A DNA stretch of 64,000 nt, from positions 2,902,553 to 2,966,552 of the forward strand of contig OY811980.1 of the NCBI GenBank assembly GCA_963681505.1. Reading direction: 5' to 3'. Positions 1,447-54,870 of this stretch are shown in pieces. The notes under the pieces were generated by a model. The model did not search any database. It saw nothing but the letters and a program-made list of their open reading frames with translations, and had not been told where the DNA came from. The stretch is from Eunapius fragilis. Lineage: Eukaryota > Porifera > Demospongiae > Spongillida > Spongillidae. The position numbers were made by a program, and so were the translations under genes. Within the stretch, counting starts at the first letter, position 1; each line of letters begins with the position of its first letter.

Positions 1447-2292
1447 AAAGTTTTGCACAAATACAATTCTGTTCAGTTACAAATTCTCTCTGTCTATTGC
1501 TACAGAAGTCACATGTTCTCCATTGCAACCCGGCAGTCGAACATGATAGGCGCCAAAAGGATGTTCAAGCTGCCTTGAGGAGTGCCTCAGTAGCACATGT
1601 TAAAAAAAAACCTACCCTGCTATTGACAGACCCATCACATGAACATCATACAGTTATGGAGCTGGTGGTGATGTTATGATGTGACGTGATTACATCATGG
1701 GGCCTTTATACTTCACACACTGACTGGTAACATTGTTCCACACACACAGTAGGGATCTCTGGAGCACACACAGCCACTGAAGAAAGGGATCATTAAAGTA
1801 TGTGTGTGTATGTGTGTGTACATGCGCTATGCAAAAACAAAGCTCTGTAAGCATACTGCATGATACACCACACATAACATGAAGTGATGAGTACACACAT
1901 ACTCACACTGTGTAGTTGACCATACCTGCAGTCAAGGTATTGACAACACCTCTCCATTGGCAGACTGTAGATGCCACTGTCAGTGTTCACATAGAGGTAC
2001 TTCACTCAACTCTGAGGGGTGGAGCATACAGTGTAGGGGAATGTGATGTTGAAATGGCTGAGGGTTGTGGTCAGAACTTACTTGATTTCTTATCTCTATT
2101 TGATTTCTTATCTCCATTTGACACGATACATCCTCACCAGCTGGGGATAGGGGTGGTGGTGGTGGTGGGGAGTCACAAACGTAAGCATTTTGTTATGTCA
2201 CCACTACACCAACACAGCCATAGGCATGCATGCAGAACAGAGGTACACTCACTAATAATATGCCAACACAGCAGTGGGTATTACCTTCTCCC

Positions 2293-2327
<35 letters not shown>

Positions 2328-3090
2328 AAATAAAAAACATTTTACCGGGCAAAATTACATTCACATAGCTATCGCCCACAGGTTTGCAAATGTTAAACAG
2401 TAACCGAGTGACAACACTTGGACTATTTAAGTAGACTGAACGAATATTGAGCGTAGCTGGATACATGCCATGAGCGCTGGGGGCTACCTTATCTGCCACA
2501 CTCAGAGCCCCCCCCCCCCCCCCCCCTCCAAAAAAAACACATTCCACCACCATTAGCTCTAGCCTTGAGCATACTTCTGTCATACCAGTCCTCACCACTG
2601 TACAGTGTGCCCCCACTATGCACCCATTATGCACCACGTGTGTCTCTACACAAGCCATTGCATATTCCTTGACCCAAAACGTCTGTTGGTGAGTGATGAG
2701 TACTCACTAGTGCACACACACACACACACTCACACACACACAAACACACATTTACTTGTTCCCAGGAAGAGGACATCTACATGATGATCCATTTAGCACA
2801 CAGGTCTGGTCTACAGCCATCTTTGTTACCCTGTTAAGAGGAAAGGGATGGTGACATGAGATGTGATCACCACAGGGGGTAAGGCCTTACACCACACAAC
2901 TCTGCACAGCCAGGAGCTCAGGGGTGTATTGGGCTATTGATTGTCCTCTGGGAGTCCTAATATGACCTGCCATTATAAATGAGTCCCCTGTTGCTGTTGC
3001 CATTAGGGACAAGGGCATCACTGTTTGACACAGATAGAGGTCAGGGGACTATACCTGATGACAAAAAAGTAACACACCATGTACAAAAAG
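1447..3090. other. Block present only in copy A
   Basis: Copy B goes directly from the equivalent of 1446 to the equivalent of 3091 (junction near 40502). The segment is rich in poly-C, TG/CA and GTG runs and has no recognisable gene. I see no terminal repeats or target duplication, so a deletion in copy B is more likely than an insertion in copy A. Confidence 0.65.
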
Positions 3091-3153
3091 TGAACATGAC
3101 TGTTAGCTCCACCCCTACTTCCTCTTCCTTCTCCCACCCCTCCCCCCATCCCA

Positions 3154-3271
3154 ATGATGCGTGTGTGTGGTGTTTGTGTGTGCGTGTGTATGTGTGTGGG
3201 TGCATGTGAGGTGTGTGGTGTGTGTGCATGTGTGTGGTTTGCGTGCAGTGTGTGTGTGTGTGTGGTTGATG
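3154..3271. repeat. GT-rich microsatellite
   Basis: Imperfect TG/GTGTGC repeat, repeated in copy B at 40567-40687. Long Val-Cys ORFs in this stretch are artefacts of the dinucleotide. Confidence 0.85.
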
Positions 3272-5347
3272 TGTTGATGTATTATCATAGGTGTAGAATA
3301 GAGGAGGCTCAGACCCCCCCCCCAGGCAATTTGCTGAGGGGGGTTCAGCACCACTCCCCCCCCCCCCCCCCCCCCCCCCAGTGTACCTGTATTTACATTA
3401 TTAAATTAATGGTAAAGGAATGGTGGTAAGGGAATGTACCCTATGTAGTCATTGAAGGTTCCATACATAAGCTCTGGACACACACTCTCCTCCAGCATAG
3501 TACCGCCCAGGTTAACTAAAGATCACACCCTCTGTGGGGTGAAGGGATGTCATAATGATGCCAACAGCCTTAGACCATCATGGGAAGGTGCATTCATGTG
3601 GATGTTAGCATTCACCACGAGGTTAGGTCTGAGAGGACCAGAGGAACGTTGCATGTTATGTTGGTAGGAAAGGGAAGACCATTTGGTCTACTGACCGATC
3701 CTGAGTCGATCTGGGGAGGAGGAAGGAGGAGGGAAGAGGGAGGGGGAGGGAAAGCATGTAGGCAACCAGTCAGGTCCAAGTCACATGATCCCTCCATGGC
3801 AACCTTTGGTGATGTAAAAGGGTGAACAGTCTTCATGCCTGTGTACATAGGAAAATGAACTATTGACTCACCTAGCTCTTGATGAGATCCCACCCATCAT
3901 ATGATCTCCATGGAGACCCACACATCCAAGTCACACCCCTCCATGGCAACCTCCAGCCTTCAGGGGTGCCTGTGTGCATGCGAAAATGAAAATGCATGGT
4001 GCATGATAGAAATAATAAAACTAGTAGAACCTTTATGGCACTCAAAGGCAACTGCATATATAGTACAGCAAAAATTATTTTTATTAAATGGCTGGTTTCC
4101 TTTTGTTTTTCCACTCACCTTATGCAAAGGTGGTGTGATGCGTTTTGCGAGACATCCAAATACACGTGTTGTATCAACTGGCCATACTGTCAAAATGGAG
4201 CAGGATCTCAATTGTCAAATAATTATCTAGTATTAGCTGGTCATTATGGTCATGGCTTTTTGACAGCATTGCCATGACAATGATTTTTAACCCCACAACA
4301 ATACTGTACAAGAGTCACTACAAAATGTGTCCAAACTCTGTCACTAGTAGCCTACCCTTAAAGCAGGTGGGCAGAATTCAATTTCATCCAGCATACTTCA
4401 TGTTTGTCTTCAGGCTATCAGGGTCTGCATGTGATAAATAGACGTGTGTAGCTGCATAACTGCATGATCATGAACACTTTTAACATACACTGCAACAGGT
4501 AAAATAATTTGAGGCCTACCTACATACCCTGTTTCCTTGAGCTACATGTGATAACATACGCATACCCATAAAAATACTTGTGTCTGACAATAGATATGTC
4601 ATTTTACTAGGGTGAGGTCTCAATAGAAACCCGATGGATTTTAATACACGTTGCTGCACAAGCCGTGCTACTTAACCTTCGCTCTCTCTCTCTCTCTCAA
4701 CACAAAGCGGCATGCTGCTTGCATATTAAGCTATGGTATACGCATGCATACCTGAGTACCGATCACCTTCGTATAAACACCGCGGCACTTACATGAACAC
4801 AGAACACTGCAGGCAAGACTTCATAAACATACCATAATTGCACGTTGACAAAGCGACGTTAACGTGTATACAAACGCACTAGCTGCACGATAGTCTATAA
4901 ATCCACACCGACGAACGCCCGGGCCAAGGCAAGCCTATGTTAGACGTTTAGTACTGGTAAGTGATTTGCGGCCATGTCATCTCGCAAACCACGCCCTCAA
5001 TCCGTCAAAAGGTAATTACAAAAAAGGCTGGGGACCCCATTCACTGGGGTGTAATGCGGTTATGGCAGCACACCTTTATAATGTCCTAACACCCCATTAT
5101 TGGTGGCGTGCGGTGTTAGCACCCTAGCATACTCTGCCTGGAACACCCATAGATGTAAGCTGAACACCCTTGTGTGTTCCCTGGGCTGTAACACCTTCAA
5201 ACCTAACACCCTCCGGCTCGGGCCTTTTTTTTTTAACAGTGTGGTAGTGAATATTAAAGATAGAGTGTGAACTTGCGGATTACATTTGCATCATATCCCG
5301 AAGTAAGAAGACGACGGAGGAGAAATTTTAAACGGGACCTGGTATGG

Positions 5348-5356
5348 ACAATTAAT
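5348..5356. repeat. Left 9-bp target-site duplication (ACAATTAAT)
   Basis: ACAATTAAT lies directly outside the left end of the 5357-10585 element and is repeated exactly at 10586-10594. Copy B, which lacks the element, has a single ACAATTAAT at 42767-42775 followed by the same flank (GGGACGAG). This fixes both element ends. Confidence 0.95.
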
Positions 5357-5460
5357 TAGTCTCGTACCCAGACCCTGGTTCCCACAGCTGCGGGAGGATT
5401 ACATCACCGCTACGTGGAAAGAGGGTCTGGAAGAATGCTCACATCCAGTCGTTCCGTGTG
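5357..5460 (+). repeat. Left terminal inverted repeat (104 bp)
   Basis: Pairs with 10482-10585 with about four mismatches by eye. Inside it, CCAGACCCT (5368-5376) and AGGGTCTGG (5422-5430) form a nested inverted repeat around a 45-base spacer. The right end has the same pair, so each end could present two transposase contact sites in opposite orientation. Confidence 0.95.
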
Positions 5461-5500
5461 CGCCTGATTTTAGGCGCACAATCAGAATGCAGAGCACTCG

Positions 5501-5508
5501 TGACGTCA
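5501..5508. promoter_or_regulatory. CRE palindrome upstream of helicase gene
   Basis: TGACGTCA followed by CG, 78 bases before the helicase ATG at 5587. The same ten bases (TGACGTCACG) occur near the other end of the element, upstream of the second gene. CREB/ATF-family factors bind this palindrome. Its role as a promoter element here is inferred from position and symmetry. Confidence 0.6.
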
Positions 5509-5586
5509 CGCATGGTGTACTTTTTAACACTAATTTGAAAACTCATTTGTTAGTTATTGGTTATTGCTATTGGTTAGTCCAATAAC

Positions 5587-7005
5587 ATGGATATTGAAGC
5601 AGCTATCGTATGCGCTAGCGAGAGATTGGGTTACACCTCAATACGTCCTAACCAGCACAAAGCTGTTAGGAGCTTTATGGACCACAAGGACGTGTTTATA
5701 AGCCTTCCTACAGGAAGCGGGAAATCGTTTTGTTTCGCAGTGCTACCCTTGGCGTTTGACAATTTCTACCAACGCGTTGGTAGCATCGTGATAGTTGTGT
5801 CACCGCTAATTGCTTTGATGAAAGATCAGGTACAAGATGATCGCATTGCACGTGCATTTTGTTCAGGTGTACTGTACATCCGTGTTTATAGGTAGCAAAT
5901 CTTAACGCGAAAGGGTTGAAGGCGGCCTATTTGAGTAGTCAGTCAGACGATAAAGGGCAGCAAGAAACCGTTTTAAGAGGGGAAGCCCAAATTGTTTTCA
6001 TTGGTCCTGAGCTTCTGCTTAAGAATGCTACATGGAGGGAGATGCTACGAACACCTATTTATCGTACCAATCTGGTTGCCTTCGTCATTGATGAAGTGCA
6101 TTGTGTCACTAAGTGGTACGTTGCACATGTGTCCTCAAGTTCACTGGTGTTTAATGATGTATTTATCCTCATATTTTAGGGGGGAGTACTTCAGGCAGGA
6201 GTTTAGACATTTGGGTGCAGTCAGGAGCTTGATCCCATCTCATGTCAACATCATGGCTATGACAGCTACTGCAACCACTGCAACAAGAAATGAGATTGCC
6301 ACCATCTTAAGCCTTGATAACCCTGTGGTTGTTGCAGCATCACCCGATAAATCCAACATTTCATACCAAGTACGACGAAAGACAACTCTTGAGGAGGTAT
6401 TTATGCCACTACTTATGAAGCTTAAATCTTTTAGATGCAAACTTCCACGGGTAATCATTTTTTGTAGAAAATGCCAGGAATGTGTAAAACTATACAACTT
6501 CTTCTTTTATTCAATGAGGGAGGAATTTACAGAGCCTGTAGCAGCACCCAATCTGCCTATATTTCGACTGGTAGATATGTATACAGGTGCAACCCGTAAG
6601 TCTGTGCAGGATTCCATTATAACTTCATTTAGGAATAGTGACAGCCCACTTAGAATAGTAATTTGCACTATTGCTTTTGGGATGGGCATAGACTGCACTG
6701 ATGTATGTCAGGTTATACACTGGGGACCATCATCAGATGTTGAGTCATATGTGCAGGAGTGTGGAAGAGCAGGTAGAAATGGTTGTCGTGCAAATGCACT
6801 CTTATTATGGAGTGAAGTGGATGTCAAATCCCATGTCTGCAAAGAAATGGAACACTTCTGCCATAACAAGGAAACATGCAGAAGAGCTCTGTTAATGTCA
6901 TACTTTGATTGCCCATTTGAAAACATTTGTGGTTGTATTTGCTGTGATGTGTGTGCATTACGCTGTAAGTGCCAGAACTGTAACCCTGATTTTTTCCCTC
7001 TTTAA
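5587..7005 (+). CDS. RecQ-type SF2 DNA helicase of the transposon
   Basis: Three exons: 5587-5829, 5892-6115 and 6180-7005, with GT-AG introns of 62 and 64 bp, giving 430 aa. Visible helicase motifs in order: motif 0 (RPNQ, residues 20-23), Walker A PTGSGKS (41-47), motif Ia SPLIALMKDQ (72-81), DEVHC box (148-152), TATAT (184-188), motif IV IIFC (248-251), FGMGID (322-327) and QECGRAGRNG (348-357). A cysteine-rich segment (376-423) resembles the RecQ zinc subdomain. The winged-helix RQC and HRDC domains are absent, so it is a minimal helicase. RecQ proteins unwind DNA 3' to 5' using ATP. A role in opening or resolving DNA during transposition is inferred from its place inside the element. The start is the first ATG after the CRE site. 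Confidence 0.93.
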
Positions 7006-7184
7006 TGCTCCCTGTGATGTTCGGTCCCATGCACTGAGTATGTTGTCAGGTAGGCCTGATATGCGGTAGCTGTTAGGGTAGAGTACCACCCATGTTCACT
7101 GTCATTGTTTTGCCCACTGAGATAAATATGCAACTGTATGAATTTTAATTTTAGACATGAACACATCTAAAATGAAAGCGGGGA
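7006..7184. other. Gap between the convergent transposon genes
   Basis: 179 bases between the two stop codons. It is A/T-rich towards 7140-7160 and must hold both 3' ends. I see no canonical AATAAA in a convincing position for either gene. Confidence 0.5.
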
Positions 7185-10100
7185 TTAATGAAGTATCTCC
7201 TTGACTTTTGTTTTCATCCATACATCTAGCTTTTTTCTTTTCACACTAGTTAATAGTTGATTACATGTGATGGATGAAAATGTGCAATGCTTCCTGCCAG
7301 GTTTGCTTTGGAATACTTCATTGTTTGCAAGTTCAGTAACAATTTTGTCTAGATCCTCAGACTCCGACCTGTGAGTGTGTCTGCCAGAATGCCCTATTCC
7401 ATTAGCCTTATCATATTTTTCTAGTATAACCTTTAGAGCACCTAGTGCTTTGCTGGCTCTCATTATTGCTTTGGGTGTTTTGTTTGCTCCAAGGTGGCTA
7501 ACTGCATCTTTGATAAGACGGTTCAAATGCTCCATATGGAGATCCGCTGGAATGTTTTTTCCTGCTCCACCTTCGCTGTTCACAAAACGTCCCCACAGCA
7601 TTTGCTCTGCATGTCTAGGTGGGAGGGTGTAATAGTATTGCATCAAAAAGGTGAAGGCTTCAATACAATAGTTCTTATGACCTGTGGCCCGAAAGATGAT
7701 TAGAAAATATTTCCAGCATCGTAGTACTCTAGTTCCATCACCTTCCTTTATGGCATCCTTAAACTCCAGTAGAAGCAAACCTAAGGACAGGGTTTCTCTT
7801 GCATATTCCAAAACGTTGTCATTTTGTTCACTGGCTTTGTTTGACTGCTTGGTAAAGGAAACACAGACAGCCTGACTGCATAATGCCTCCACAATACTCT
7901 TCACAGCTGCTATAGGATCAGCAGAAGATAGTATCTTGTCAGATAGCTGCCTTGTGTTTGCAACACCCACATTCTGAACAGCAGCTGCTAAGACATGACC
8001 CACTACCACAAGTTCTAGAAATTCCTCACAAGCAGTGAGGTCTTTGGAGACATCAGACACTACATTACGCCTGTTTATGACATTCCTTAGCTGGAATAGC
8101 GTTCCTCCATCAATAGTTGAGCAGGACTTGTACAGTCTTCTCCATATCACCTGTGGTGATGAATTCATACCAATGAATATCATTAACACATGGCTCTGTG
8201 GAGTCTAGTCTACTCTTGTTTACCATAATGTACACACCATCTAAACCCTCCCCTTTCACATGCATGCTTCACCATACACTACCTTCATGTAACACAGCTT
8301 TGTGTGCCAGTCTTCAATGATAGGAATAAGTCCCTCACCACGCTCCCATCCATTTATTGAGTTAGAGAGAATACCTTGGCCACCACGAATTCTGGCAGCT
8401 GTCAACTGGTAACCACCAATCAGAATGTGGTAGAAGTGGTCAATATTGAGGGTGACAACTTCTGACCCTCCACCTTCTGTATTAACTTGGAAGGTCTGAA
8501 CACTTGTGGTCTTTGGAATGTATTTATGCAATTCATCTACAATATCTACCATGTCATTGAGCACATTCTCATTTTTCAAAATCACTCCCAAAGGTACCTG
8601 TATTGTACAATGGACTAAATCATTACAATATTGTTTTTATAAACTACAATCACTTACCACATTTGACTTTAGGGACATATTCCTAGAGTACTTGTGAAGA
8701 ATATGGTGATTTGTACCAGCTGACAATGTCTGAAGACCTGGTAAATAATGGACTAACATTCGTGTCATTAGAATTTGAAAGTTTGCAACTAATTTTTCAT
8801 TGTCTGCTGGTGCAGGGAAAAAGACATTGAAGTCAATGTCATCAGATGTAATCAGTGGAGGACTGCTATTAAGGTGTTTAAAACTAATCCTGTCCTTTAC
8901 TGCATATACATGAAAGTAATGCAGTGATGTGGTTTGGTTGCTAAATCTAATATCACGAGGTTTTACATTCTTGTCAATGTTATCACCTACTAGTTTGAAT
9001 CCAAACCACTCCAAATCCTCTTCATCATTAGGATTGGTAGGATCCACAACCACTATAGTACAAAGGAATAAGAATGCATTCACTTGTAACATGGGCCATA
9101 AAATTACACTTACCATCTTGTAAAACATCATGAGATGGCAAATCACTTTCACTGCATGATGACGACAGTGATGTTGTTAAAGGAGAAAAACTTGGTGATT
9201 CTATGCTGGATGATGAGTCGTAGTTATCAGTATACACTGATAATATTGGTGCAACAGAGCCATAACCCTAAGAAAGAAACTGGTTTTAGGTAAATGAAAT
9301 GAAATGAATACATCAACAATTACATGAGTGTGGTTTGTATATAAGTTTTCAATACTGCTACCCATTCCTTCACTACCACATCATGGTTTGATCCGAGAAT
9401 GTCAACCACTTCTCTTGTACTGTCACTTGATAAACACAAACCAAGTTTCTGCAGTCTTGAATATACCTAAATGTATGTATATACTACATAATGAAAATCT
9501 TATCCACTAACAGATAGTTGCATTTACCATTTTTCCTGCATGCCCAGAGTATAGAATGAGAGATACAATAAAATGAATAATGGTATTCCTCCCATGTGAT
9601 TTAACAAGAATTGCTATGCAGGCAAGAGTTATGCTGAGACGTTTAGGACTGTTTTTTGGGATGCAAGCATCTAACATTCCAATGAGGACAGGAGCTACAC
9701 GTTTGAGGGTAGTGTAGTGACTGTGGCTATTTGCATAAGACGTTGCAAAGCTCGCATTCTTGACCAGGATGGTACAATGTTTTATGATGTCCTTCATTTC
9801 CGTTCTTATAATCCAGTTAATCCTAGCCAACAGGTACTTCCTCATTGCTTCAGATCGCAGTGAATGCTTTGCAAAAGCTACTTTTGCATTGCGACCTAGA
9901 GACCTTCCAATCGCTTCCCTTGATGGAGACAGTACGTGCTTCTTCTCACACCCTTGATAGGTTATAACAACCTGTGCAAAATTTTAGCAATCCATTGACA
10001 TAAATGCCCCAGACAAATCTTATGCATTTACCTTAACACCACTTGCTTCTTCTGGAAGAGTATCAGCTGCACGCTTTGTGCCTTTGCAGCGAGAAGTGGA

Positions 10101-10376
10101 AGGTGTGGTAGAACTTCGTAGGCGAAGCAACTCCTGCAATTCACTCTTTAAGCTATCTAACTTCTCCTTTAATGCCGAATACTTCGTAGTGAGGTTGAAG
10201 CATTTCTTACATATAAACCCAGATGAGTACTCTTTCGACGCATCGCTCTTCGCTCCTCCAGCATCGCAGACTAGGTCAAATAGTACAGCTCGACACTGCA
10301 ACACTGATGGACTATCGAGCCGCCGTCTGTCTTTGCAGCTTAACACAGGGGCAACGCATAGTTTGCAGCAATCCAT
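7185..10376 (-). CDS. DUF6589-like protein with ZAD-like zinc domain (presumed transposase)
   Basis: Seven exons on the minus strand: 10376-10032, 9971-9528, 9466-9362, 9267-9114, 9052-8658, 8597-8283 and 8150-7185. All have GT-AG junctions and the frame is kept, giving 907 aa. The N-terminus has C4-x2-C7 and C56-x2-C59 in the spacing of a ZAD-type zinc domain, then a heptad-like coiled coil (about 66-88) and a basic patch. The C-terminal half contains segments I recognise as DUF6589: IEDWHTKLC (575-583), VIWRRLY (587-593) and QLRNVINRRNVV soon after. Residue 544 is Tyr in GGYQLT, where relatives, from memory, have Asp (GDQLT). The start is the first ATG downstream of the CRE site; the upstream GTG is not used. 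Transposase function is inferred from location and lack of any other candidate. Confidence 0.88.
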
Positions 10377-10430
10377 ATTTCTAGCGCGCGTGAATTGAGC
10401 GATAACAAATGAGTGTCGCTGTGACACCTA

Positions 10431-10438
10431 TGACGTCA
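10431..10438. promoter_or_regulatory. CRE palindrome upstream of DUF6589 gene
   Basis: TGACGTCA followed by CG, 55 bases upstream of the minus-strand ATG at 10376. It mirrors 5501-5508, giving the two element genes matching control sites. Confidence 0.6.
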
Positions 10439-10481
10439 CGCTTACGATGACATAACGTCTGTCATGCATTAATCGAACGCC

Positions 10482-10585
10482 CACGCGGAACGACTGGATG
10501 CGAGCATTCTTCCAGACCCTCTTTCCACGTAGCGGTGATGTAATCCACCCGCAGCTATGGGAACCAGGGTCTGGGTACGAGACTA
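10482..10585 (-). repeat. Right terminal inverted repeat (104 bp)
   Basis: Inverted partner of 5357-5460, ending GGGTCTGGGTACGAGACTA. It contains the same nested AGGGTCTGG / CCAGACCCT pair. Confidence 0.95.
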
Positions 10586-10594
10586 ACAATTAAT
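10586..10594. repeat. Right 9-bp target-site duplication (ACAATTAAT)
   Basis: Exact copy of 5348-5356, followed by GGGACGAG as in the uninterrupted copy B sequence. Confidence 0.95.
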
Positions 10595-10913
10595 GGGACG
10601 AGTGATTTTGAAAATCGCACCGGCAGTTTTATAACACACAGATACAACGCAGAACTGTTCTCCTTTTTTGATATCGCTCGATTGCCACTAAGAGCGAAGT
10701 GACCCGACTCTTGGTCAACGCGAGTGACGTTTTGTTATAGATGACTTCAATCGTACTGCTGGATTCCTACTCCCCTAGGTTATCTCAGCCAATAAGCACA
10801 CCAGTGCATTACAGAAATGTAATCACTTCGTACTTATAAGGTGCAGCCCCGCATAATAAGAAATTACATTGATTTATCTTTAGCGAGCAGCAGATCGCTG
10901 TAAACAGCAGGTG
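10595..10913. other. Unique-looking spacer, no gene
   Basis: Continues the sequence interrupted by the transposon; copy B equivalent is 42776-43093. No long frame and no known motif. The stretch ACGCAGAACTGTTC near 10648 resembles ACGCAAAACTGTTC near 25030, upstream of the talin-like gene. Confidence 0.5.
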
Positions 10914-10922
10914 TGCACTTAG
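10914..10922. repeat. 9-bp target duplication of the foldback element (TGCACTTAG)
   Basis: TGCACTTAG is repeated exactly at 13953-13961 on the other side of the element. Copy B has the same pair at 43094-43102 and 44624-44632. Confidence 0.88.
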
Positions 10923-11183
10923 ACCGCTTGGAAGTTGGCACCACATTCCACAGCACCACATTCCACACTAATTATCACAAAACAATATTGTGCGCGGCGG
11001 GCGCCAGTTACCCACAAGTGCAAGAACTAGCTAAAATTACACAATAACAGCATACGATCTGATTGCATCATGCGTGAACCGGTACATGTAATCAATATAA
11101 TAATACTGCACTACCACAGCATCTGATGAGGTCTACACATTTCTGAACATGTGTGATTAAAATGGCCCCTTCTCCTTTAGGAC

Positions 11184-12532
11184 CAGGGCCGTAGATAACT
11201 TTTATAGTTTGGGGGGGCACAATAGTCTGAATGTCAATGTGGTCTAAATTTTATAGGTATGCCATGCGTAAAAGCCTACATGTAGGCACAATTCTTCGAT
11301 CACAATTTGATTTGAACCATATTTTGCATGCATGCGCGCGTTATCATATACACTCATTAATAACCGATTAAGTCCTGTAGCCGCAAATTCGCGTCAAAGA
11401 GTTGTTTACAGCTACCAAGGTATTTTGGGGGACGCGACCACAAACCACAGAAAGATTATACCAATTTGAAATCCTTCATGTACACGGGTATTACCCCTTC
11501 CTGCCACAAAACATTTTTGTGACCACATTTAAGATCAAATAACCTCTACATAACAAACCATATTTAGGCCTTAATCGGTTAAGGAAAAATACCAAACACT
11601 TCTTGGCGACTGGAATTGCGGCTTTCAAATTCATTGCCAATGGTTGCAAGGTCAAGCTTGTCTGTTTCATCTTTGTGAACATGCAGTAGCATGCACCAGT
11701 TTAACCTTGATTGGTGCATTGCTATCTGAAGTCATATCAGCATCATAATGCGCTCCACGTAAAGCCAAATCTTGCCGTGCTAAGAAGCGAATGTTTGACA
11801 TAATTGCAAAAATACATTTTCTGTTTAAAGCATTATGTTCAGTATATTCAGCACTTAGTTGTGTACCCACATTCATTGTCTCTGTCGAAGCTGCTGCAAC
11901 CATGCTAAGAGCATCGCAATGGCATGCTGATTGATCGTGCTTGCTGAATTCATCTAATGCTTTTTTCCAGTTAAAGAATCCAGAAGTAATAAATACTGTA
12001 TCCATGTATCCTCTCATTGGCATCTTTAACTGGACTGCAGTAGCGCAATAGAAGCATAAGACGGCATCTTCTTCTTCAATGTAATGCAACCAGCGGTACT
12101 TTTCATACCACGAGTAACAATAGCTACGACGCTTACTACCAAACTGCCTCATAGGAAACTTCAACCTGGGCTGATTGGGCTTTAATGGGAGAATTCTGGT
12201 ACAGGTCACAGGACTGGTAGTGGGGGATGGTGAATCAGGTGCATTTGCTTCATCATGACCGCATTCTTCCAATAGGCATACGACTTCATTACTCCCGCTT
12301 ATAGGCTCGCTACTGGATTCACTTGAGTGAAGTATTACCTGAGCTGAGCCTGTATTACCCGAAGTTCGTCGGACATCAGAATCCTCCTTTGATGATACCA
12401 CGGGCCGTATCGGCACAATATACTTTACATTGCGATTGCCACGCACGTGATTGCACTGTAATAATTTTAAAATATCACAGAAATTTTGGGGGGGCACGTG
12501 CCCCCCCAAGCTCCCCCTTATCTACGGCCTTG
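11184..12532. mobile_element. hAT-family deletion derivative, copy A only
   Basis: Ends are CAGGGCCGTAGATAAC on the left and the inverse of CAAGGCCGTAGATAAG on the right. Just inside are runs of G or C flanking a GGGGGGGCAC motif, a form I know from ZMYM/TTF-type hAT elements. Copy B reads straight from the equivalent of 11183 into ACCATGGCTATG. The expected 8-bp duplication is not seen: the left flank is TTTAGGAC and the right flank CTGTCACC. The right flank has six extra bases relative to copy B, so a junction rearrangement or homogenisation of the satellite is likely. Confidence 0.78.
11667..12509 (-). pseudogene. hAT transposase N-terminal fragment (TTF-type zinc finger)
   Basis: An open minus-strand frame of about 280 codons, of which roughly the last 160 resemble the N-terminus of ZMYM-like hAT transposases. 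It shows RQFGSKRRSYCYSWYEKYRW, then LCFYC, then GFFNWKKAL and the FLARQDLALRG motif that precedes the DUF4371/catalytic region. The catalytic core and dimerisation domain are missing, so it cannot be an active transposase. The frame opens without ATG inside the terminal repeat, so a true start lies downstream or is lost. What follows (11184-11660) is non-coding element DNA. Confidence 0.75.
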
Positions 12533-12538
12533 CTGTCA

Positions 12539-13725
12539 CCATGGCTATGTCACACATGAGAGAGTGAGTTTACCCCACTGTCTGACCAAGGTAAGCGATG
12601 TTCTGGTGATCCTGCACCACCACAGCATCTGATGAGGTATGTCTCACATTTCTGAACATGTGTCATTAAAATGGCCCCTCCCCCTTGAGGACCATGGCTA
12701 TGTCACACATGTGAGAGTGAGTTTACCCCACTGTCTGACCAAGGTAAGCGATGTTCTGGTGATCCTGCACAATCACAGTATCTGATAAGGTCTGTCTCAC
12801 ATTGCTGAACATGTGTCATTAAAATGGCCCCTCCTCCTTGAGGACCATGGCTATGTCACACATGTGAGAGAGACAAGGTAAGCGATGTTCTGGTATTCCT
12901 GCACCACCACAGCATCTGATGAGGTATGTCTCACATTTCTGAACATGTGTCATTAAAATGTCCCCTCCCCCTTGAGGACCATGGCTATGTCACACATGTG
13001 AGAGAGAGTTTACCCCACTGTCTGACCAAGGTAAGCGATGTTCTGGTGATCCTGCACCACCACAGCATCTGATGAGGTCTGTCACACATTTCTGAATGTG
13101 TTTCATGATCATGGCTTCTCCCCCTTGAGGACCATGGCTATGTCACATGTGTGACATAGACATGGTCCTCAAGGGGGAGGGGCCAGTTTAATGACACATG
13201 TTCAGAAATGTGAGACAGACCTCATCAGATGCTGTGGTGGTGCAGGATCACCAGAACATCGCTTAACTTGGTCAGACAGTCGGGTAAACTTGCTCTCACA
13301 TGTGTGACATAGCCATGGTCCTCAAGGGGGAGGGGCCATTTTAATCACACATGTTCAGAAATGTGAGATAGACTTCATCAGATGCTGTGGTGGTGCAGGA
13401 TCACCAGAACATCGCTTAACTTGGTCAGACAGTGGGGTAAACTCACTCTCACATGTGTGACATAGCCATAGTCCTCAAGGGAGAGGGGCCATTTTAATGA
13501 CACATGTTCAGAAATGTGAGACATACCTCATCAGATGCTGTGGTGGTGCAGGAATACCAGAACATCGCTTACCTTGGTCAGACAGTGGGGTAAACTCACT
13601 CTCACATGTGTGACATAGCCATGGTCCTCAAGGGGGAGGGGCCATTTTAATCACACATGTTCAGAAATGTGAGACAGTCCTCATCAGATGCTGTGGTGGT
13701 GCAGGATCACCCGAAAATTGTAGAC
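12539..13725. repeat. Inverted 153-bp satellite array, copy A
   Basis: Forward units begin ACCATGGCTATGTCACACATG at about 12539, 12691, 12844, 12978 and 13131 (spacing 152-153, one shortened to 134). After a symmetry axis at the palindrome TGTCACATGTGTGACA (about 13141-13156) the same unit runs in reverse to about 13725. The unit includes TTTACCCCACTGTCTGACC and CAGCATCTGATGAGGT. The opposed arrays make a large potential cruciform. Confidence 0.92.
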
Positions 13726-15779: not shown

Positions 15780-16680
15780 TCCTAGCCACCGAGGCAGGAA
15801 ACCAACAGCCACCAAGGCTGCCAATACACACAGCCACCAAGGCTGCCAATACATACAGCCACCAAGGCTGCCAATACACACAGCTACCAAGGCTGACAAT
15901 ACACACAGCTACGAAGGCTGACAATACACACAGCTACCAAAGCTGACAATACACACAGCCACCAAGGCTGACAATACGTACAGCCATCAAGGCTGCCAAT
16001 ACACACAACTACCAAGGTTGACAATACATACAGCCACCAAGGATGGCAATACACACAGCCACCAAGGCTGACAATATGTACAGCCACCAAGGCTGACAAT
16101 ACATACAGCCACCAAGGCTGGCAATACACACAGCTACGAAAGGCTGACAATACACGCAGCCACCAAGGCTGACAGAACACACAGCTACTGTACCAAGGCT
16201 GACAATACACACAGCTACCAAGGCTGACAATACACACAGCTACCAAGGCTGACAATAAGCACAGCTACCAAGGCTGACAATACACACAGCTACCAAGGCT
16301 GACAATACACACAGCTACCAAGGCTAACAATACACACAGCCACCAAGGCTGACAATGTACACACAGCTACCAAGGCTGACAATACACACAGCTACCAAGG
16401 CTGACAATACGCACAGCTACCAAGGCTGACAATACACACAGCCACCAAGGCTGACAATTTACAAACAGCTACCAAGGCTAACAATACACACAGCCACCAA
16501 GGCTGACAATTTACACACAGCTACCAAGGCTGACAATACGCACAGCTACCTAGGCTGACAATACACACAGCTACCTAGGCTGACAACACACACAACTACC
16601 ATGGCTGACAATACATGCAGCCACCAAGGCTGACAATTTTCACACAGCCACGTAGCCCCCAAGGCTGACCATACACACTG
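15780..16680. repeat. 25-bp minisatellite, copy A
   Basis: About 35 tandem units of CAGCYACCAAGGCTGACAAT plus ACACA, with variants (CTGCC for CTGAC, TTTACA spacers). It replaces coding sequence downstream of the RT/RNase H remnant. Minus-strand frames through it give meaningless CVYCQPW-type repeats. Confidence 0.95.
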
Positions 16681-18789: not shown

Positions 18790-19063
18790 ACAAGTAATAA
18801 AAACATTCTCTATACGAGAAGGTTGGTGGTATATAGGAATCAAAGGTGATGGTGGTGTAAAAAGCAAGGGAACAAGGTTTCTGATTGAAAAGGAAAAATG
18901 AAATAGACCTTTATTAGCAAGCACATTTATATATGACAATATAGGTCTATTTCATTTTTCCTTTTCAATCAGAAACCTTGTTCCCTTGCTTTTTACACCA
19001 CCATCACCTTTGATTCCTATATACTACCAACCTTCTCGTATAGAGAATTGTTTTATTACTTGT
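18790..19063. repeat. Long perfect hairpin, copy A (121-bp arms)
   Basis: Arms 18790-18910 and 18943-19063 are inverted copies with only one or two mismatches by eye, around a 32-base loop. Arms contain AAAAAGCAAGGGAACAAGG and its inverse. No frame is conserved. A transcript across it would form a long double-stranded RNA. It may be a foldback MITE; no target duplication is evident. Confidence 0.92.
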
Positions 19064-39977: not shown

Positions 39978-42669
39978 CACTGTTTAAAAAAAAGGTGTTA
40001 CCTTAACACACTTAGGGGTGTTCGTATGCATGTTTTAAAATGACACCCCATGGGGTGTCGTAGTAACCGCTCAGGAGTGTTACAGCTAACACCCCTCAAG
40101 TGTAGCCAGCTGTACACTCTATTGCGTGTTGACAGAGGTATTAATATCTCGCCATAAATTGATGATCCCAAAATACAATAGGTTCAATTGATTTTAATAA
40201 AACGAAGGTCACGAACAGAGAACGTGCTGTTAAGGGTGACGCATGCGCAATGAAAAATACACAGCCAAATAATATCAATGTTTTTCAGGTACATTCCCGG
40301 TTGATTCCCGTGACGTTCCACAAGTTCACCTTGTCGCACGTTTAACATAACCCAACACGAATACAATACATGGATCAATATTTATACTTGATATCATGCT
40401 GGTGCCAAGCGTAAGCATGCATGATATTCCAAATGTGCTGATTGTTGAATCATCCCTTTCCATGCAAAATATTACCCATTCTAGGTATTCATACAATAAT
40501 TAATGAACATGACTGTTAGCTCCACCCCTACTTCCTCTTCCTTCTCCCACCCCTCCCCCCATCCCAATGATGCGTGTGTGTGGTGTTTGTGTGTGCGTGC
40601 GTATGTGTGTGGGTGCATGTGAGGTGTGTGGTGTGTGTGTGCATGTGTGTGGTTTGTGTGCAGTGTGTGTGTGTGTGTGTGTGGTTGATGTGTTGATGTA
40701 TTATCATAGGTGTAGAATAGAGGAGGCTCAGACCCCCCCCCCAGGCAATTTGCTGAGGGGGGTTCAGCACCACTCCCCCCCCCCCCCCCCCCCCCCCAGT
40801 GTACCTGTATTTACATTATTAAAATAATGGTAAAGGAATGGTAGTAAGGGAATGTACCCTATGTAGTCAGTGAAGGTTCCATACATAAGCTCTGGACACA
40901 CACTCTCCTCCAGCATAGTACCGCCCAGGTTAACTAAAGATCACACCCTCTGTGGGGTGAAGGGATGTCATAATGATGCCAACAGCCTTAGACCATCATG
41001 GGAAGGTGCATTCATGTGGATGTTAGCATTCACCACGAGGTTAGGTCTGAGAGGACCAGAGGAACGTTGCATGTTATGTTGGTAGGAAAGGGAAGACCAT
41101 TTGGTCTACTGACCGATCCTGAGTCGATCTAGGGAGGAGGAAGGAGGAGGGAAGAGGGAGGGGGAGGGAAAGCATGTAGGCAACCAGTCAGGTCCAAGTC
41201 ACATGATCCCTCCATGGCAACCTTTGGTGATGTAAAAGGGTGAACAGTCTTCATGCCTGTGTACATAGGAAAATGAACTATTGACTCACCTAGCTCTTGA
41301 TGAGATCCCACCCATCATATGATCTCCATGGAGACCCACACATCCAAGTCACACCCCTCCATGGCAACCTCCAGCCTTCAGGGGTGCCTGTGTGCATGCG
41401 AAAATGAAAATGCATGGTGCATGATAGAAATAATAAAACTAGTAGAACCTTTATGGCACTCAAAGGCAACTGCATATATAGTACAGCAAAAATTATTTTT
41501 ATTAAATGGCTGGTTTCCTTTTGTTTTTCCACTCACCTTATGCAAAGGTGGTGTGATGCGTTTTGCGAGACATCCAAATACACGTGTTGTATCAACTGGC
41601 CATACTGTCAAAATGGAGCAGGATCTCAATTGTCAAATAATTATCTAGTATTAGCTGGTCATTATGGTCATGGCTTTTTGACAGCATTGCCATGACAATG
41701 ATTTTTAACCCCACAACAATACTGTACAAGAGTCACTACAAAATGTGTCCAAACTCTGTCACTAGTAGCCTACCCTTAAAGCAGGTGGGCAGAATTCAAT
41801 TTCATCCAGCATACTTCATGTTTGTCTTCAGGCTATCAGGGTCTGCATGTGATAAATAGACGTGTGTAGCTGCATAACTGCATGATCATGAACACTTTTA
41901 ACATACACTGCAACAGGTAAAATAATTTGAGGCCTACCTACATACCCTGTTTCCTTGAGCTACATGTGATAACATACGCATACCCATAAAAATACTTGTG
42001 TCTGACAATAGATATGTCATTTTACTAGGGTGAGGTCTCAATAGAAGCCCGATGGATTTTAATACACGTTGCTGCACAAGCCGTGCTACTTAACCTTCGC
42101 TCTCTCTCTCTCTCTCTCTCAACACAAAGCGGCATGCTGCTTGCATATTAAGCTATGGTATACGCATGCATACCTGAGTACCGATCACCTTCGTATAAAC
42201 ACCGCGGCACTTACATGAACACAGAACACTGCAGGCAAGACTTCATAAACATACCATAATTGCACGTTGACAAAGCGACGTTAACGTGTACACAAACGCA
42301 CTAGCTGCACGATAGTCTATAAATCCACACCGACGAACGCCCGGGCCAAGGCAAGCCTATGTTAGACGTTTAGTACTGGTAAGTGATTTGCGGCCATGTC
42401 ATCTCGCAAACCACGCCCTCAATCCGTCAAAAAGTAATTACAAAAAAGGCTGGGGACCCCATTCACAGGGGCGTAATGCGGTTATGGCAGCACACCTTTA
42501 TAATGTCCTAACACCCCATTATTGGTGGGGTGCGGTGTTAACACCCTAGCATACTAGTACTCTGCCTGGAACACCCATAGATGTAAGCTGAACACGTTTG
42601 TGTGTTCCCTGGGCTGTAACACCTTCAAACCTAACACCCTCCGGCTCGGGCCTTTTTTTTTTAACAGTG
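39978..42669. mobile_element. Non-autonomous CACTA-like element, copy B
   Basis: Same element as 872-5241, with the same CACTGTTT start, AACAGTG end and GTGTTA-rich sub-terminal arrays. It is 2.7 kb instead of 4.4 kb, mainly because the block equivalent to about 1447-3090 is missing. No coding content is recognised. Confidence 0.5.
40567..40687. repeat. GT-rich microsatellite, copy B
   Basis: Counterpart of 3154-3271, slightly longer in its last GT run. Confidence 0.85.
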
Positions 42670-43093
42670 TGGTAAAGATAGAGTGTGAACTTGCGGATTA
42701 CATTTGCATCATATCCCGAAGTAAGAAGACGACGGAGGAGAAATTTTAAACGGGACCGGGTATGGACAATTAATGGGACGAGTGATTTTGAAAATCGCAC
42801 CGGCAGTTTTATAACACACAGATACAACGCAGAACTGTTCTCCTTTTTTGATATCGCTCGATTGCCACTAAGAGCGAAGTGACCCGACTCTTGGTCGACG
42901 CGAGTGACGTTTTGTTATAGATGACTTCAATCGTACTGCTGGATTCCTACTCCCCTAGGTTATCTCAGCCAATAACCACACCAGTGCATTACAGAAATGT
43001 AATCACTTCGTACTTATAAGGTGCAGCCCCGCATTATAAGGAATTACATTGATTTATCTTTAGCGAGCAGCAGATCGCTGTAAACAGCAGGTG
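42670..43093. other. Spacer holding the empty site of the RecQ transposon
   Basis: Single ACAATTAAT at 42767-42775 with no insertion. No gene recognised. Confidence 0.8.
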
Positions 43094-43102
43094 TGCACTT
43101 AG

Positions 43103-44623
43103 ACCGCTTGGAAGTTGGCACCACATTCCACAGCACCACATTCCACACTAATTATCTCAAAACAATACAGTGCGGCGGGCGCCAGTGTCCCACAAGTGCA
43201 AGAACTAGCTATAATTACACAATAACAGCATACGATCTGATTGCATCATGCGTGAACCGGTACATGTAATCATTATAATAATGCTGCACTACCACAGCAT
43301 CTGATGAGGTCTACACATTTCTGAACATGTGTGATTAAAATGGCCCCTCCTCCTTTAGGACCATGGCTATGTCACACATGAGAGAGTGAGTTTACCCCAC
43401 TGTCTGACCAAGGTAAGCGATGTTCTGGTGATCCTGCACCACCACAGCATCTGATGAGGTATGTCTCACATTTCTGAACATGTGTCATTAAAATGGCCCC
43501 TCCCCCTTGAGGACCATGGCTATGTCACACATGTGAGAGTGAGTTTACCCCACTGTCTGACCAAGGTAAGTGATGTTCTGGTGATCCTGCATAACCACAG
43601 CATCTGATAAGGTCTGTCTCACATTTCATTAAAATGGCCCCTCCTCCTTGAGGACCATGGCTATGTCACACATGTGAGAGAGACAAGGTAAGCGATGTTC
43701 TGGTGATCCTGCACCACCACAGCATCTGATGAGGTATGTCTCACATTTCTGAACATGTGTCATTAAAATGTCCCCTCCCCCTTGAGGACCATGGCTATGT
43801 CACACATGTGAGAGAGAGTTTACCCCACTGTCTGTCCAAGGTAAGCGATGTTCTGGTGAACCTGCACCACCACAGCATCTGATGAGGTCTGTCACACATT
43901 TCTGAATGTGTTTCATGATCATGGCTTCTCCCCCTTGAGGACCATGGCTATGTCACATGTGTGACATAGCCATGGTCCTCAAGGGGGAGGGGCCATTTTA
44001 ATCACACATGTTCAGAAATGTGAGACAGACCTCATCAGATGCTGTGGTGGTGCAGGATCACCAGAGCATCGCTTACCTTGGACAGACAGTGGGGTAAACT
44101 CTCTCTCACATGTGTGACATAGCCATGGTCCTCAAGGGGGAGGGGACATTTTAATGACACATGTTCAGAAATGTGAGACATACCTCATCAGATGCTGTGC
44201 CAGTGGTGCAGGAATACCAGAACATCGCTTACCTTGGTCAGACAGTGGGGTAAACTCACTCTCACATGTGTGACATAGCCATGGTCCTCAAGGGGGGGGG
44301 GGGGGGGGTGGGCCATTTTAATCACACATGTTCAGAAATGTGAGACAGTCCTCATCAGATGCTGTGGTGGTGCAGGATCACCCGAAAATTGTAGACACTC
44401 ACTGTCCTACGTATGACGTAGCCACGGTCCTCAAGGCTGTCATAAGCTTGGCATTACCTTTCTTTTCTAGATTGCATTCAACGTGTGGATGGCCACACTG
44501 TATTAATCGCCGTAATTAGGACTTTATAATTATATTCATTATAAACTGAGCCGCTCAATAATGTTTTGTGATAATTAGTGTGGAGTGTGGTGCTGTGGAA
44601 TGTGGTGCCAACTTCCAAGCGGT
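43103..44623. mobile_element. Foldback / MULE-like non-autonomous element, copy B
   Basis: Same element without the hAT insertion, 1521 bp. Ends ACCGCTTGG...CCAAGCGGT, target duplication TGCACTTAG at 43094-43102 and 44624-44632. It contains the two opposed satellite arrays and a poly-G run at about 44293-44309 not seen in copy A. Confidence 0.82.
43361..44395. repeat. Inverted 153-bp satellite array, copy B
   Basis: Same opposed arrays as copy A, with the axis near 43951-43970. Individual units differ between copies by small deletions, for example a shortened unit around 43621-43650, consistent with unequal exchange inside the array. Confidence 0.9.
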
Positions 44624-45826: not shown

Positions 45827-46489
45827 GTTAGCAGCACGTGCACGCAAGCTTAGAATGAACACTTGTACTACAGTGCCAGCCTTTTAAACCCCCCAACACG
45901 TGGCCCATCACGTGCTATACTACCAATCACATTTGGGAGGGAGCAAAATTTCTGTCTAATTCACAGTGTTCAAACGTCAGAAATGTATATCTCCCTTCCA
46001 CATGCCCCCTGTATAGCACCTCCCTTCTCCCCCCCCCCCTCCCCAAGTGACCAAAACAGAGTATTGGTTTAGCTTCATTGTGCACGCTGCCACCAACACA
46101 AGCACACCACAACCAATTAGAGCCACAAAGAACGGGTTAGACCTCCGGGCATAATGTTGCAATGTGCATACCAATCTTTGGCTGTTTTACTGTTATTTGG
46201 ACCCCCTAGCCTGCCGACTGTGCATGCTAAACGTAGTGGGGTCCATAACCTAATTGCCACATTTGCTTAAAAGGAGTTCTCTCAATCTGTTGCTGCATAC
46301 ACAACCAGTCTTCCTTCAATTGCTCACAAGTTTCTGAGAACACAGCTGTAAGGAGATGCAGGGGAGTCAGCTGGGCCGGTATATGAAATCAACTCAAACA
46401 ATGGTATGCCAATGCCACCGAGGCTAGCCATACCCAGCCAGTAACCCTTCCACCAAGGATTGGAAATTGCCCCAAGTTCCTAGCCACCG

Positions 46490-47275
46490 AGGCAGGAAAC
46501 CAACAGCCACCAAGGCTGCCAATACACACAGCCACCAAGGCTGCCAATACATACAGCCACCAAGGCTGCCAATACACACAGCTACCAAGGCTGACAATAC
46601 ACACAGCTACAAAGGCTGACAATACACACAGCTACCAAGGCTGACAATACACACTGCCACCAAGGCTGACAATACGTACAGCCATCAAGGCTGCCAATAC
46701 ACACAACTACCAAGGCTGACAATACGTACAGCCACCAAGGATGGCAATACACACAGCTATGAAGGCTGACAATACACGCAGCCACCAAGGCTGACAATAC
46801 CAAGGCTGATAAAACACACAGCTACTGTACCAAGGCTGACAATACATACAGCTACCAAGGCTGACAATACAAACAGCTACCAAGGCTGACGCTACCAAGG
46901 CTGACAATACACACAGCCACCAAGGCTGACAATTTACACACAGCTACCAAGGCTAACAATACACACAGCCACCAAGGCTGACAATTTACACACAGCTACC
47001 AAGGCTGACAATACGCACAGCTACCTAGGCTGACAATACACACAACTACCATGGCTGACAATACATGCAGCCACCAAGGCTGACAATTTTCTCACAGCTA
47101 CCAAAGGCTAACAATACACACAGCCACCAAGGCTGACAATTTACACACAGCTACCAAGGCTGACAATACGCACAGCTACCTAGGCTGACAATACACACAA
47201 CTACCATGGCTGACAATACATGCAGCCACCAAGGCTGACAATTTTCACACAGCCACGTAGCCCCCAAAGCTGACC
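46490..47275. repeat. 25-bp minisatellite, copy B
   Basis: Same repeat with a different unit number and order from copy A. A block ending in a CTACCATGG-containing unit occurs twice (about 46980-47090 and 47140-47250), showing recent internal duplication. Confidence 0.95.
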
Positions 47276-49404: not shown

Positions 49405-49678
49405 ACAAGTAATAAAAGCATTCTCTATACGAGAAGGTTGGTGGTACATAGGAATCAAAGGTGATGGTGGTGTAAAAAGCAAGGGAACAAGGTTTCTGAT
49501 TGAAAAGGAAAAATGAAATATACCTATATTAGCAAGCACATTTATATATGACAATATAGGTCTATTTCATTTTTCCTTTTCAATCAGAAACCTTGTTCCC
49601 TTGCTTTTTACACCACCATCACCTTTGATTCCTATATACTACCAACCTTCTCATATAGAGAATTGTTTTATTACTTGT
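49405..49678. repeat. Long perfect hairpin, copy B
   Basis: Counterpart of 18790-19063 with the same loop. The arms differ from copy A at a few positions (for example GGTACATAGG for GGTATATAGG in the left arm only), so pairing is slightly weaker. Confidence 0.92.
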
Positions 49679-54145: not shown

Positions 54146-54317
54146 GGGGCCGTTCATAAATTACGTCACGCAGAAGGGGGGGAGGGGGGGGGGGGGGGGG
54201 GTATCAGCCAGTGTGACGATGTATACATTAAGCATACATCAGTATGGTATAATGTGTGACGAGGGGGGGGGGTCCATAATGGTCAAAAATAGCGTGACGT
54301 AATTTATGAACGGCCCC
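54146..54317. mobile_element. MITE with 3-bp target duplication, copy B only
   Basis: 172-bp insertion with inverted ends GGGGCCGTTCATAAATTACG plus TCACGC (26 bp, perfect) and a TTG duplication at 54143-54145 and 54318-54320. Copy A shows the empty site (CTCTTGACTGC near 23508). The interior is mostly poly-G and a short AT stretch. A 3-bp duplication fits CACTA/Chapaev or Academ-type elements; no coding sequence to decide. Confidence 0.92.
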
Positions 54318-54870
54318 TTGACTGCAAGAAGGGAGGTCTAGTAACGCAATGTCACAATGAAGTTAGAGATGTTATTGGCGACCTAGCATCACTTGTTTAC
54401 AAGGAAGTCGTAAAAGAACCAATCGTGCAAGAGGCAAATGATGCAGAAGGTGTACCCTCCCTAATTGCTGATCTGGTGTATGGCAGCCCCAAACCGTAGC
54501 GTTGTTTGATGTACGAGGACTCCGTCAACTGATACAACAAGAGGTGTGAAGGAGGCTCGGCGAAGAGCTGCTGCTTCTGAGTATTTCTTCTTCTTTTCTT
54601 CCTCAGCTGAAGAGAGAACGGCAGTAACAACCCGTTGTGAGTGCGACGGGGCGTCTGTGTCTGTGACAGGCTCGAGAAGCAAGAATTTTTTGTCAAACAA
54701 CTTGCTCAGAAACTTGCCCATAAGTGGGACAAATCCAACAGTGAAGTAATAGGGTGGATGAGAGCACGACTCTCATTCGCTATACTCAGAGCATCAAACC
54801 TCTTTCTGAGGGGCTCTCGCACCAAATGGAGGAGTGCAATTGGTACGGGCGATGGAGCAGGGTTGCCCAC

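Follow-up and report, generated by a model that had tools for sequence, protein, structure and literature searches.

The locus described here lies in a 64,000-nucleotide stretch of the Eunapius fragilis genome (hereafter, the window, which contains no runs of N) and holds a DNA transposon with two convergent genes: a predicted RecQ-type core helicase on the forward strand and a protein with a DUF6589 domain on the reverse strand, placed tail to tail and 179 bp apart (Table 1). The inverted repeat arms, as aligned (5356-5463 and 10479-10586), are 95% identical over 108 nt, and the same 9 bp, ACAATTAAT, stand on both sides of 5357-10585. The original prediction of a young two-gene DNA transposon named an exact 9-bp target duplication, 104-bp terminal repeats, two open spliced frames and an empty site in the second long stretch of the window; all of these are found, with 430 amino acids in three exons for the helicase and 907 amino acids in seven exons for the DUF6589 protein.

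Table 1. Coordinates of the transposon, its genes and its target site within the window
Feature	Position	Strand	Details
Whole transposon	5357-10585	.	5229 bp, TAGTCTCG...CGAGACTA; flanked by an exact 9-bp duplication; ends inverted; stretch B holds the empty site
Target duplication (9 bp), left copy	5348-5356	+	ACAATTAAT
Target duplication (9 bp), right copy	10586-10594	+	ACAATTAAT
Left terminal inverted repeat, 104 bp	5357-5460	+	100/104 nt identical to right end
Right terminal inverted repeat, 104 bp	10482-10585	-	100/104 nt identical to left end
Helicase exon 1	5587-5829	+	motif that we take to be Walker A
Helicase exon 2	5892-6115	+	motif that is presumably the DEVH box
Helicase exon 3	6180-7005	+	C-terminal core, cysteine-rich RecQ-like region, stop
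DUF6589 exon 1	10032-10376	-	start; CxxC...CxxC N-terminus
DUF6589 exon 2	9528-9971	-	gene model
DUF6589 exon 3	9362-9466	-	gene model
DUF6589 exon 4	9114-9267	-	gene model
DUF6589 exon 5	8658-9052	-	GDNID motif with Asp373, candidate for the first acid
DUF6589 exon 6	8283-8597	-	GGxQLT motif
DUF6589 exon 7	7185-8150	-	DLHMEHLN motif, candidate Glu 793; stop
Codon 544 of the DUF6589 gene	8409-8411	-	Tyr in window copy; Asp in 14/14 other readable copies
Empty target site, stretch B	42766-42774	+	flank alignment against stretch A

Within the window lie two long stretches related to each other, A at 1-32838 and B at 39130-64000, which are collinear over about 25-33 kb and 90-98% identical block by block. 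Stretch B is without the element: the left flank (3091-5356) corresponds to 40504-42774 (98.1% identity), the right flank (10586-11189) corresponds to 42766-43367 (97.4%), and the overlap of the two flanks in B is precisely the 9-bp target. Since the element is absent from B and the flanks overlap by the exact target, the simplest reading is that the element inserted after A and B had split; the window copy is a recent insertion. The two stretches could have arisen by tandem segmental duplication or represent adjacent haplotypes. Haplotypic duplications were removed manually from the assembly (odEunFrag1.1), as stated in its description (PMC12616128), and A and B could therefore be a pair of haplotypes that remained next to each other. 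Under either reading the empty site stands.

Several other features of the two stretches can be recorded here. About 1.6 kb of stretch A (1448-3090) is missing from B, and no inverted ends with a duplication were found at its borders. Some 200 bp (54146-54345) is present in stretch B alone; part of it has GGGGCCGTTCATAAATTACGTCACG-like ends in inverted orientation together with long runs of G, and it looks like a short non-autonomous element. Three repeat features are common to both stretches: a tandem array of a short unit with offsets in steps of ~25 bp (15784-16651 and 46482-47256), clusters in which a ~150-bp unit recurs in direct and inverted orientation (12538-13718 and 43281-44386), and 274 bp matching its own complement at about 91-92% (18790-19063 and 49405-49678).

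The helicase gene (5587-7005, forward strand) has an open spliced frame. In the Pfam scan its product matches DEAD (PF00270, E = 2.6e-24) and Helicase_C (PF00271, E = 5.6e-15); the zinc region scores 21.4 bits, below the RecQ_Zn_bind cut-off of 25, and neither an RQC nor an HRDC domain is listed for the protein. Against the PDB, the best matches come from the RecQ family – WRN (5e-54), bacterial RecQ (~7e-52), RECQ1 (1e-45) and BLM (9e-41) – with residues 5-379 aligning to WRN and residues 10-415 to bacterial RecQ (1oyw). Judged by these matches, which cover an SF2 core and a RecQ-type zinc region, the predicted protein is a RecQ-type core helicase. With RQC and HRDC unlisted and the zinc domain under the cut-off, the description 'minimal RecQ', which had been given to it from the bare sequence, is a fair one and holds up.

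The second gene (10376-7185, reverse strand) encodes the DUF6589 protein, whose predicted length of 907 amino acids is confirmed by its homologs; an alternative 922-amino-acid model was rejected because it contains one wrong acceptor and because the homologs agree with 907. The profile search against Pfam, run with the 922-amino-acid model, returned DUF6589 (PF20231, E = 9.1e-52, residues 427-857) as the sole family at E ≤ 0.1. The N-terminus carries a CxxC...CxxC pattern, which had been read as a ZAD domain; this label did not stand, as residues 1-102 match 0 Pfam families at E ≤ 10 (the HMMER filters drop most weak matches). A profile built from 23 DUF6589 homologs gave 0 matches in the PDB at E ≤ 1. 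The Pfam entry for PF20231 is still labelled as function unknown, whereas here the domain sits inside mobile elements with defined ends. In the literature searched, a scope outside which lie most subscription papers and the original AcademH paper, DUF6589 is named nowhere and PF20231 appears only in an unrelated optics context.

Among the acidic positions of the DUF6589 protein, three are conspicuous: Asp373 within the GDNID motif, position 544 within GGDQLT and Glu793 within DLHMEHLN. We infer that they are candidates for a D-D-E triad. All 9 copies readable there have Glu793, as do L058-L061, the four members of two further families described below. Asp373, which precedes the Pfam-matched stretch, is present in 4 of the 5 copies readable there and in L058-L061; the exception, L045, reads Ile at this position, possibly via a frame break. 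Position 544 is Asp in all 10 other readable copies, in L058-L061 and in all 5 proteins compared from other organisms, and the Ephydatia gene model P0004 is without the motif, its sequence being cut there. Owing to the Tyr at this otherwise conserved Asp, the open frames of the window copy are no proof that it works. If the D-D-E triad holds, the transposase encoded by the window copy itself is probably inactive, and, with the second candidate acid lost, the copy may be immobile by itself; it would then either have changed after landing or have moved in trans. The original prediction had taken the window copy to be self-contained, a claim that Tyr544 leaves without support.

We searched the genome (218,937,333 bases in 24 contigs). 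The terminal 100 bases of the element have at least 41 matches (40 of 818 candidates scored), 36 of the 41 lying in the window or in the stretches examined. Among plasmids, an uninformative search with the terminal repeat yielded no match. A second copy, L032, is 99.4% identical over 5226 bp and has an altered left end, and L033 is ~99% identical and contains ~3.5 kb of other DNA. Six shorter copies (L031, L034, L036, L038, L039 and L043) have both ends and only parts of the interior. A more distant copy, L049, carries both genes in the same layout as in the window, and the N-terminal part of its helicase is missing.

Both ends were recognised in 18 copies: the window copy and 10, 4 and 3 more in successive sets of stretches examined; at the other loci examined, the second end was not found by the motif search and they are outside this count. 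An exact 9-bp duplication flanks 12 of the 18 copies, and a duplication of any other length flanks none (0/18). The 12 duplications are all 9 bp long and varied in sequence. As a control, flanks were cross-paired among 14 copies (the twelve together with L032 and L043), which yielded 0 matches of at least 7 bp in 182 pairings. No duplication is seen in the remaining six two-ended copies (L032, L035, L037, L043, L053 and L059), some of which may combine ends that do not belong together, L037 above all, with three mismatches in its left end.

Two further families, with two copies each, were chosen from the list of DUF6589 matches for having several places that share one score. The first is represented by L058 (5158 bp, end TAGTCTCG, duplication TCCACGAAC), which has an additional, incomplete copy of the terminal repeat inside its left end, and by L059, which is 99.96% identical to L058 over 5093 bp; this near-identity points to very recent movement within this genome. 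The second family is represented by L061 (5330 bp, end TAGCCTCG, duplication GTATTACCC) and by L060, which is 99.4% identical to L061 over 4532 bp and for which no ends were found in the stretch examined. The inverted ends thus begin with TAGTCTCG in the window copy, TAGTCTCG in L058 and TAGCCTCG in L061. Compared with the window copy piece by piece, the helicase is 37-44% and the DUF6589 protein 26-47% identical in L058, and the respective values for L061 are 31-38% and 29-33%. As the window, L058 and L061 families – the three families examined – all share both the 9-bp duplication and the gene pair, the 9-bp cut accompanies the pair across distant families.

The association of the two genes extends through the genome. 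DUF6589 has at least 116 matches (102 of 215 candidates scored), which merge into 89 loci, and the helicase has at least 128 (98 of 982 candidates scored), which merge into 82. At 64 of the 89 merged DUF6589 loci listed, a helicase lies within 3 kb, and at 63 of these the two genes face each other 3' to 3'; the remaining one is a second piece belonging to the C22 locus. Paired genes are separated by a median of 375 bp, and about 0.26 pairs would be expected by chance. Among the helicase matches listed, the other 25 DUF6589 loci have none within 3 kb, at least 4 of the 25 belonging to shortened members of the window family (L031, L034, L038 and L039), and 19 of the 82 merged helicase loci are likewise unpaired with a DUF6589 locus among the matches listed. 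A DUF6589 locus ~13.5 kb to the left of the window (G000:C10:2888163-2889098) has no helicase within 3 kb among the matches listed. In Ephydatia muelleri, the DUF6589 gene EMCRGX_G022803 and the helicase gene EMCRGX_G022804 have consecutive tags and are assigned to contigs of equal listed size, which suggests that they are neighbours. XPG domains, the type to which we presume the nuclease of AcademX transposons to belong, have two (XPG_I) and one (XPG_N) matches in the genome, none of them at a DUF6589 locus among those listed.

Both genes show an excess of synonymous change relative to the distant copy L049: pS is 0.77 and pN 0.25 for the DUF6589 gene, and pS is 0.85 and pN 0.21 for the helicase gene, with the synonymous differences saturated. 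For closer pairs, dN/dS is only moderate (0.13 to 0.78), values that include broken copies and alignments that may cross frame breaks.

The role of transposase that had been suggested for the DUF6589 protein is likely; the domain is paired with a helicase at 63 of the 89 merged loci listed. In the mechanism that we propose, the DUF6589 transposase would bind the long terminal repeats, its putative D-D-E site (Asp373, residue 544, which is Asp in other copies, and Glu793) would cut the ends and join them to the target, whose strands would be cut with a 9-bp stagger. As a fixed partner, the RecQ-type core helicase would most likely unwind the ends or the target or clear the complex after insertion, and movement would most likely proceed by cut and paste. 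It is improbable, in our estimate, that the helicase is instead a passenger, that is, a captured gene with no part in transposition. Such a reading would fit the shorter copies that lack a full helicase and have nevertheless moved, as their 9-bp duplications attest, although these may have been mobilised in trans; it would also fit the 25 of 89 DUF6589 loci without a helicase within 3 kb among the matches listed. Against it stand the convergent pair kept at 63 loci, with helicases down to ~31% identical, the strong synonymous excess of the helicase gene relative to L049, and the database matches of the helicase, among which (best 120 of 7997) Ephydatia proteins and unnamed entries outrank those named RecQ.

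As to classification, Academ is named as one of the DDD/E superfamilies (PMC9587614), and two kinds of Academ element share this superfamily in print: AcademH is described with a helicase and duplications of 9 or 10 bp, AcademX with a nuclease and duplications of 3 or 4 bp, and the difference in duplication length is tied there to helicase versus nuclease (PMC10045372). AcademH occurs in animals and fungi according to the title of Kojima 2020 (Mobile DNA 11:15), as cited in PMC10045372 and PMC10799480, the latter citing it for AcademH in fungi; PMC10799480 also names DEAD and Helicase_C where it treats helicase domains from AcademH, KolobokH or Helitron as one group. Our elements carry a helicase (PF00270, PF00271 and RecQ matches in the PDB) and have 9-bp duplications in 12 of 18 two-ended copies, and their lengths of 5229, 5158 and 5330 bp compare with a mean Academ consensus length of 5565 bp in the curated library of a bivalve study (PMC10294476). 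Set beside AcademH as it is described – likewise a helicase, 9- or 10-bp duplications, hosts among animals and fungi and an Academ length of ~5.5 kb – they show no difference that we could find. On the strength of gene content and duplication length, compared with the published description of AcademH, we therefore file the element as very probably an AcademH-type DNA transposon in which DUF6589 would be the transposase and the RecQ-type helicase its partner. Weighing against this reading are the six two-ended copies with no duplication, the DUF6589 and helicase loci left unpaired among the matches listed, the lack of an XPG-domain neighbour at the DUF6589 loci listed that would connect the AcademH and AcademX lineages, the Ile of L045 at the first Asp together with the place of this Asp ahead of the Pfam-matched stretch, and the only moderate dN/dS of the closer pairs. 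AcademX, in which a nuclease replaces the helicase and the duplications measure 3 or 4 bp (PMC10045372), was rejected as an identity on the 9-bp duplications and on the absence of XPG domains from the DUF6589 loci listed. Two expectations of the original prediction found no support here: the combination of helicase and 9- or 10-bp duplications is already in print for AcademH, which leaves the claim of an undescribed superfamily unsupported, and the 3-4 bp duplications that it gave for helicase-bearing Academ elements belong, in that account, to AcademX only (PMC10045372).

Somewhat less probable still than a passenger helicase, and in our view unlikely, is that DUF6589 elements form a superfamily of their own, unrelated to Academ, which acquired its RecQ helicase and 9-bp cut independently; its members would depend on a RecQ-type helicase, cut the target with a 9-bp stagger, be abundant in freshwater sponges and have relatives in fungi. 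In keeping with this, DUF6589 is absent from the literature searched (with the AcademH paper outside its scope) and its function is given as unknown in Pfam, and what connects these elements with Academ is their gene content, their size and the length of their duplications. AcademH, however, is printed with the matching combination of helicase and 9- or 10-bp duplications (PMC10045372) and is placed in both animals and fungi by the cited title. Furthermore, a DUF6589 protein of Pleurotus, P0039, distantly matches the sponge profile (E = 9.4e-6), which also argues for the AcademH-type assignment over a separate origin.

MuDR/MULE elements, which make duplications of about 9 bp, resemble ours in duplication length and long terminal repeats, and we reject this identity as next to impossible because the Pfam scan finds no transposase domain but DUF6589 at E ≤ 0.1 and because of the RecQ partner. 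Kolobok elements use a transposase of their own and duplicate TTAA, whereas the 12 duplications here are varied 9-bp sequences and DUF6589 is the only Pfam match of the protein; we therefore also reject a Kolobok identity, for which the chances are vanishingly small, even for the RecQ-bearing kind (KolobokH, or elements like Kolobok-1_CCri). The likeness to that kind is that it, too, pairs a DDE transposon with a RecQ helicase, which is described as lying on the complementary strand in Kolobok-1_CCri of a rhodophyte (PMC9587614).

Helicase-bearing AcademH transposons with duplications of 9 or 10 bp have already been described (PMC10045372). What is new is that DUF6589 is tied to transposition, through elements whose ends are defined and whose duplications are 9 bp long, and through the RecQ gene that converges on DUF6589 at 63 of the 89 loci listed. 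This link between DUF6589 and transposons would allow animal and fungal DUF6589 'genes' to be re-annotated as transposons. As the genome contains families that have moved recently (copies 99.4% and 99.96% identical), the role of a RecQ helicase in DNA transposition could be put to the test.
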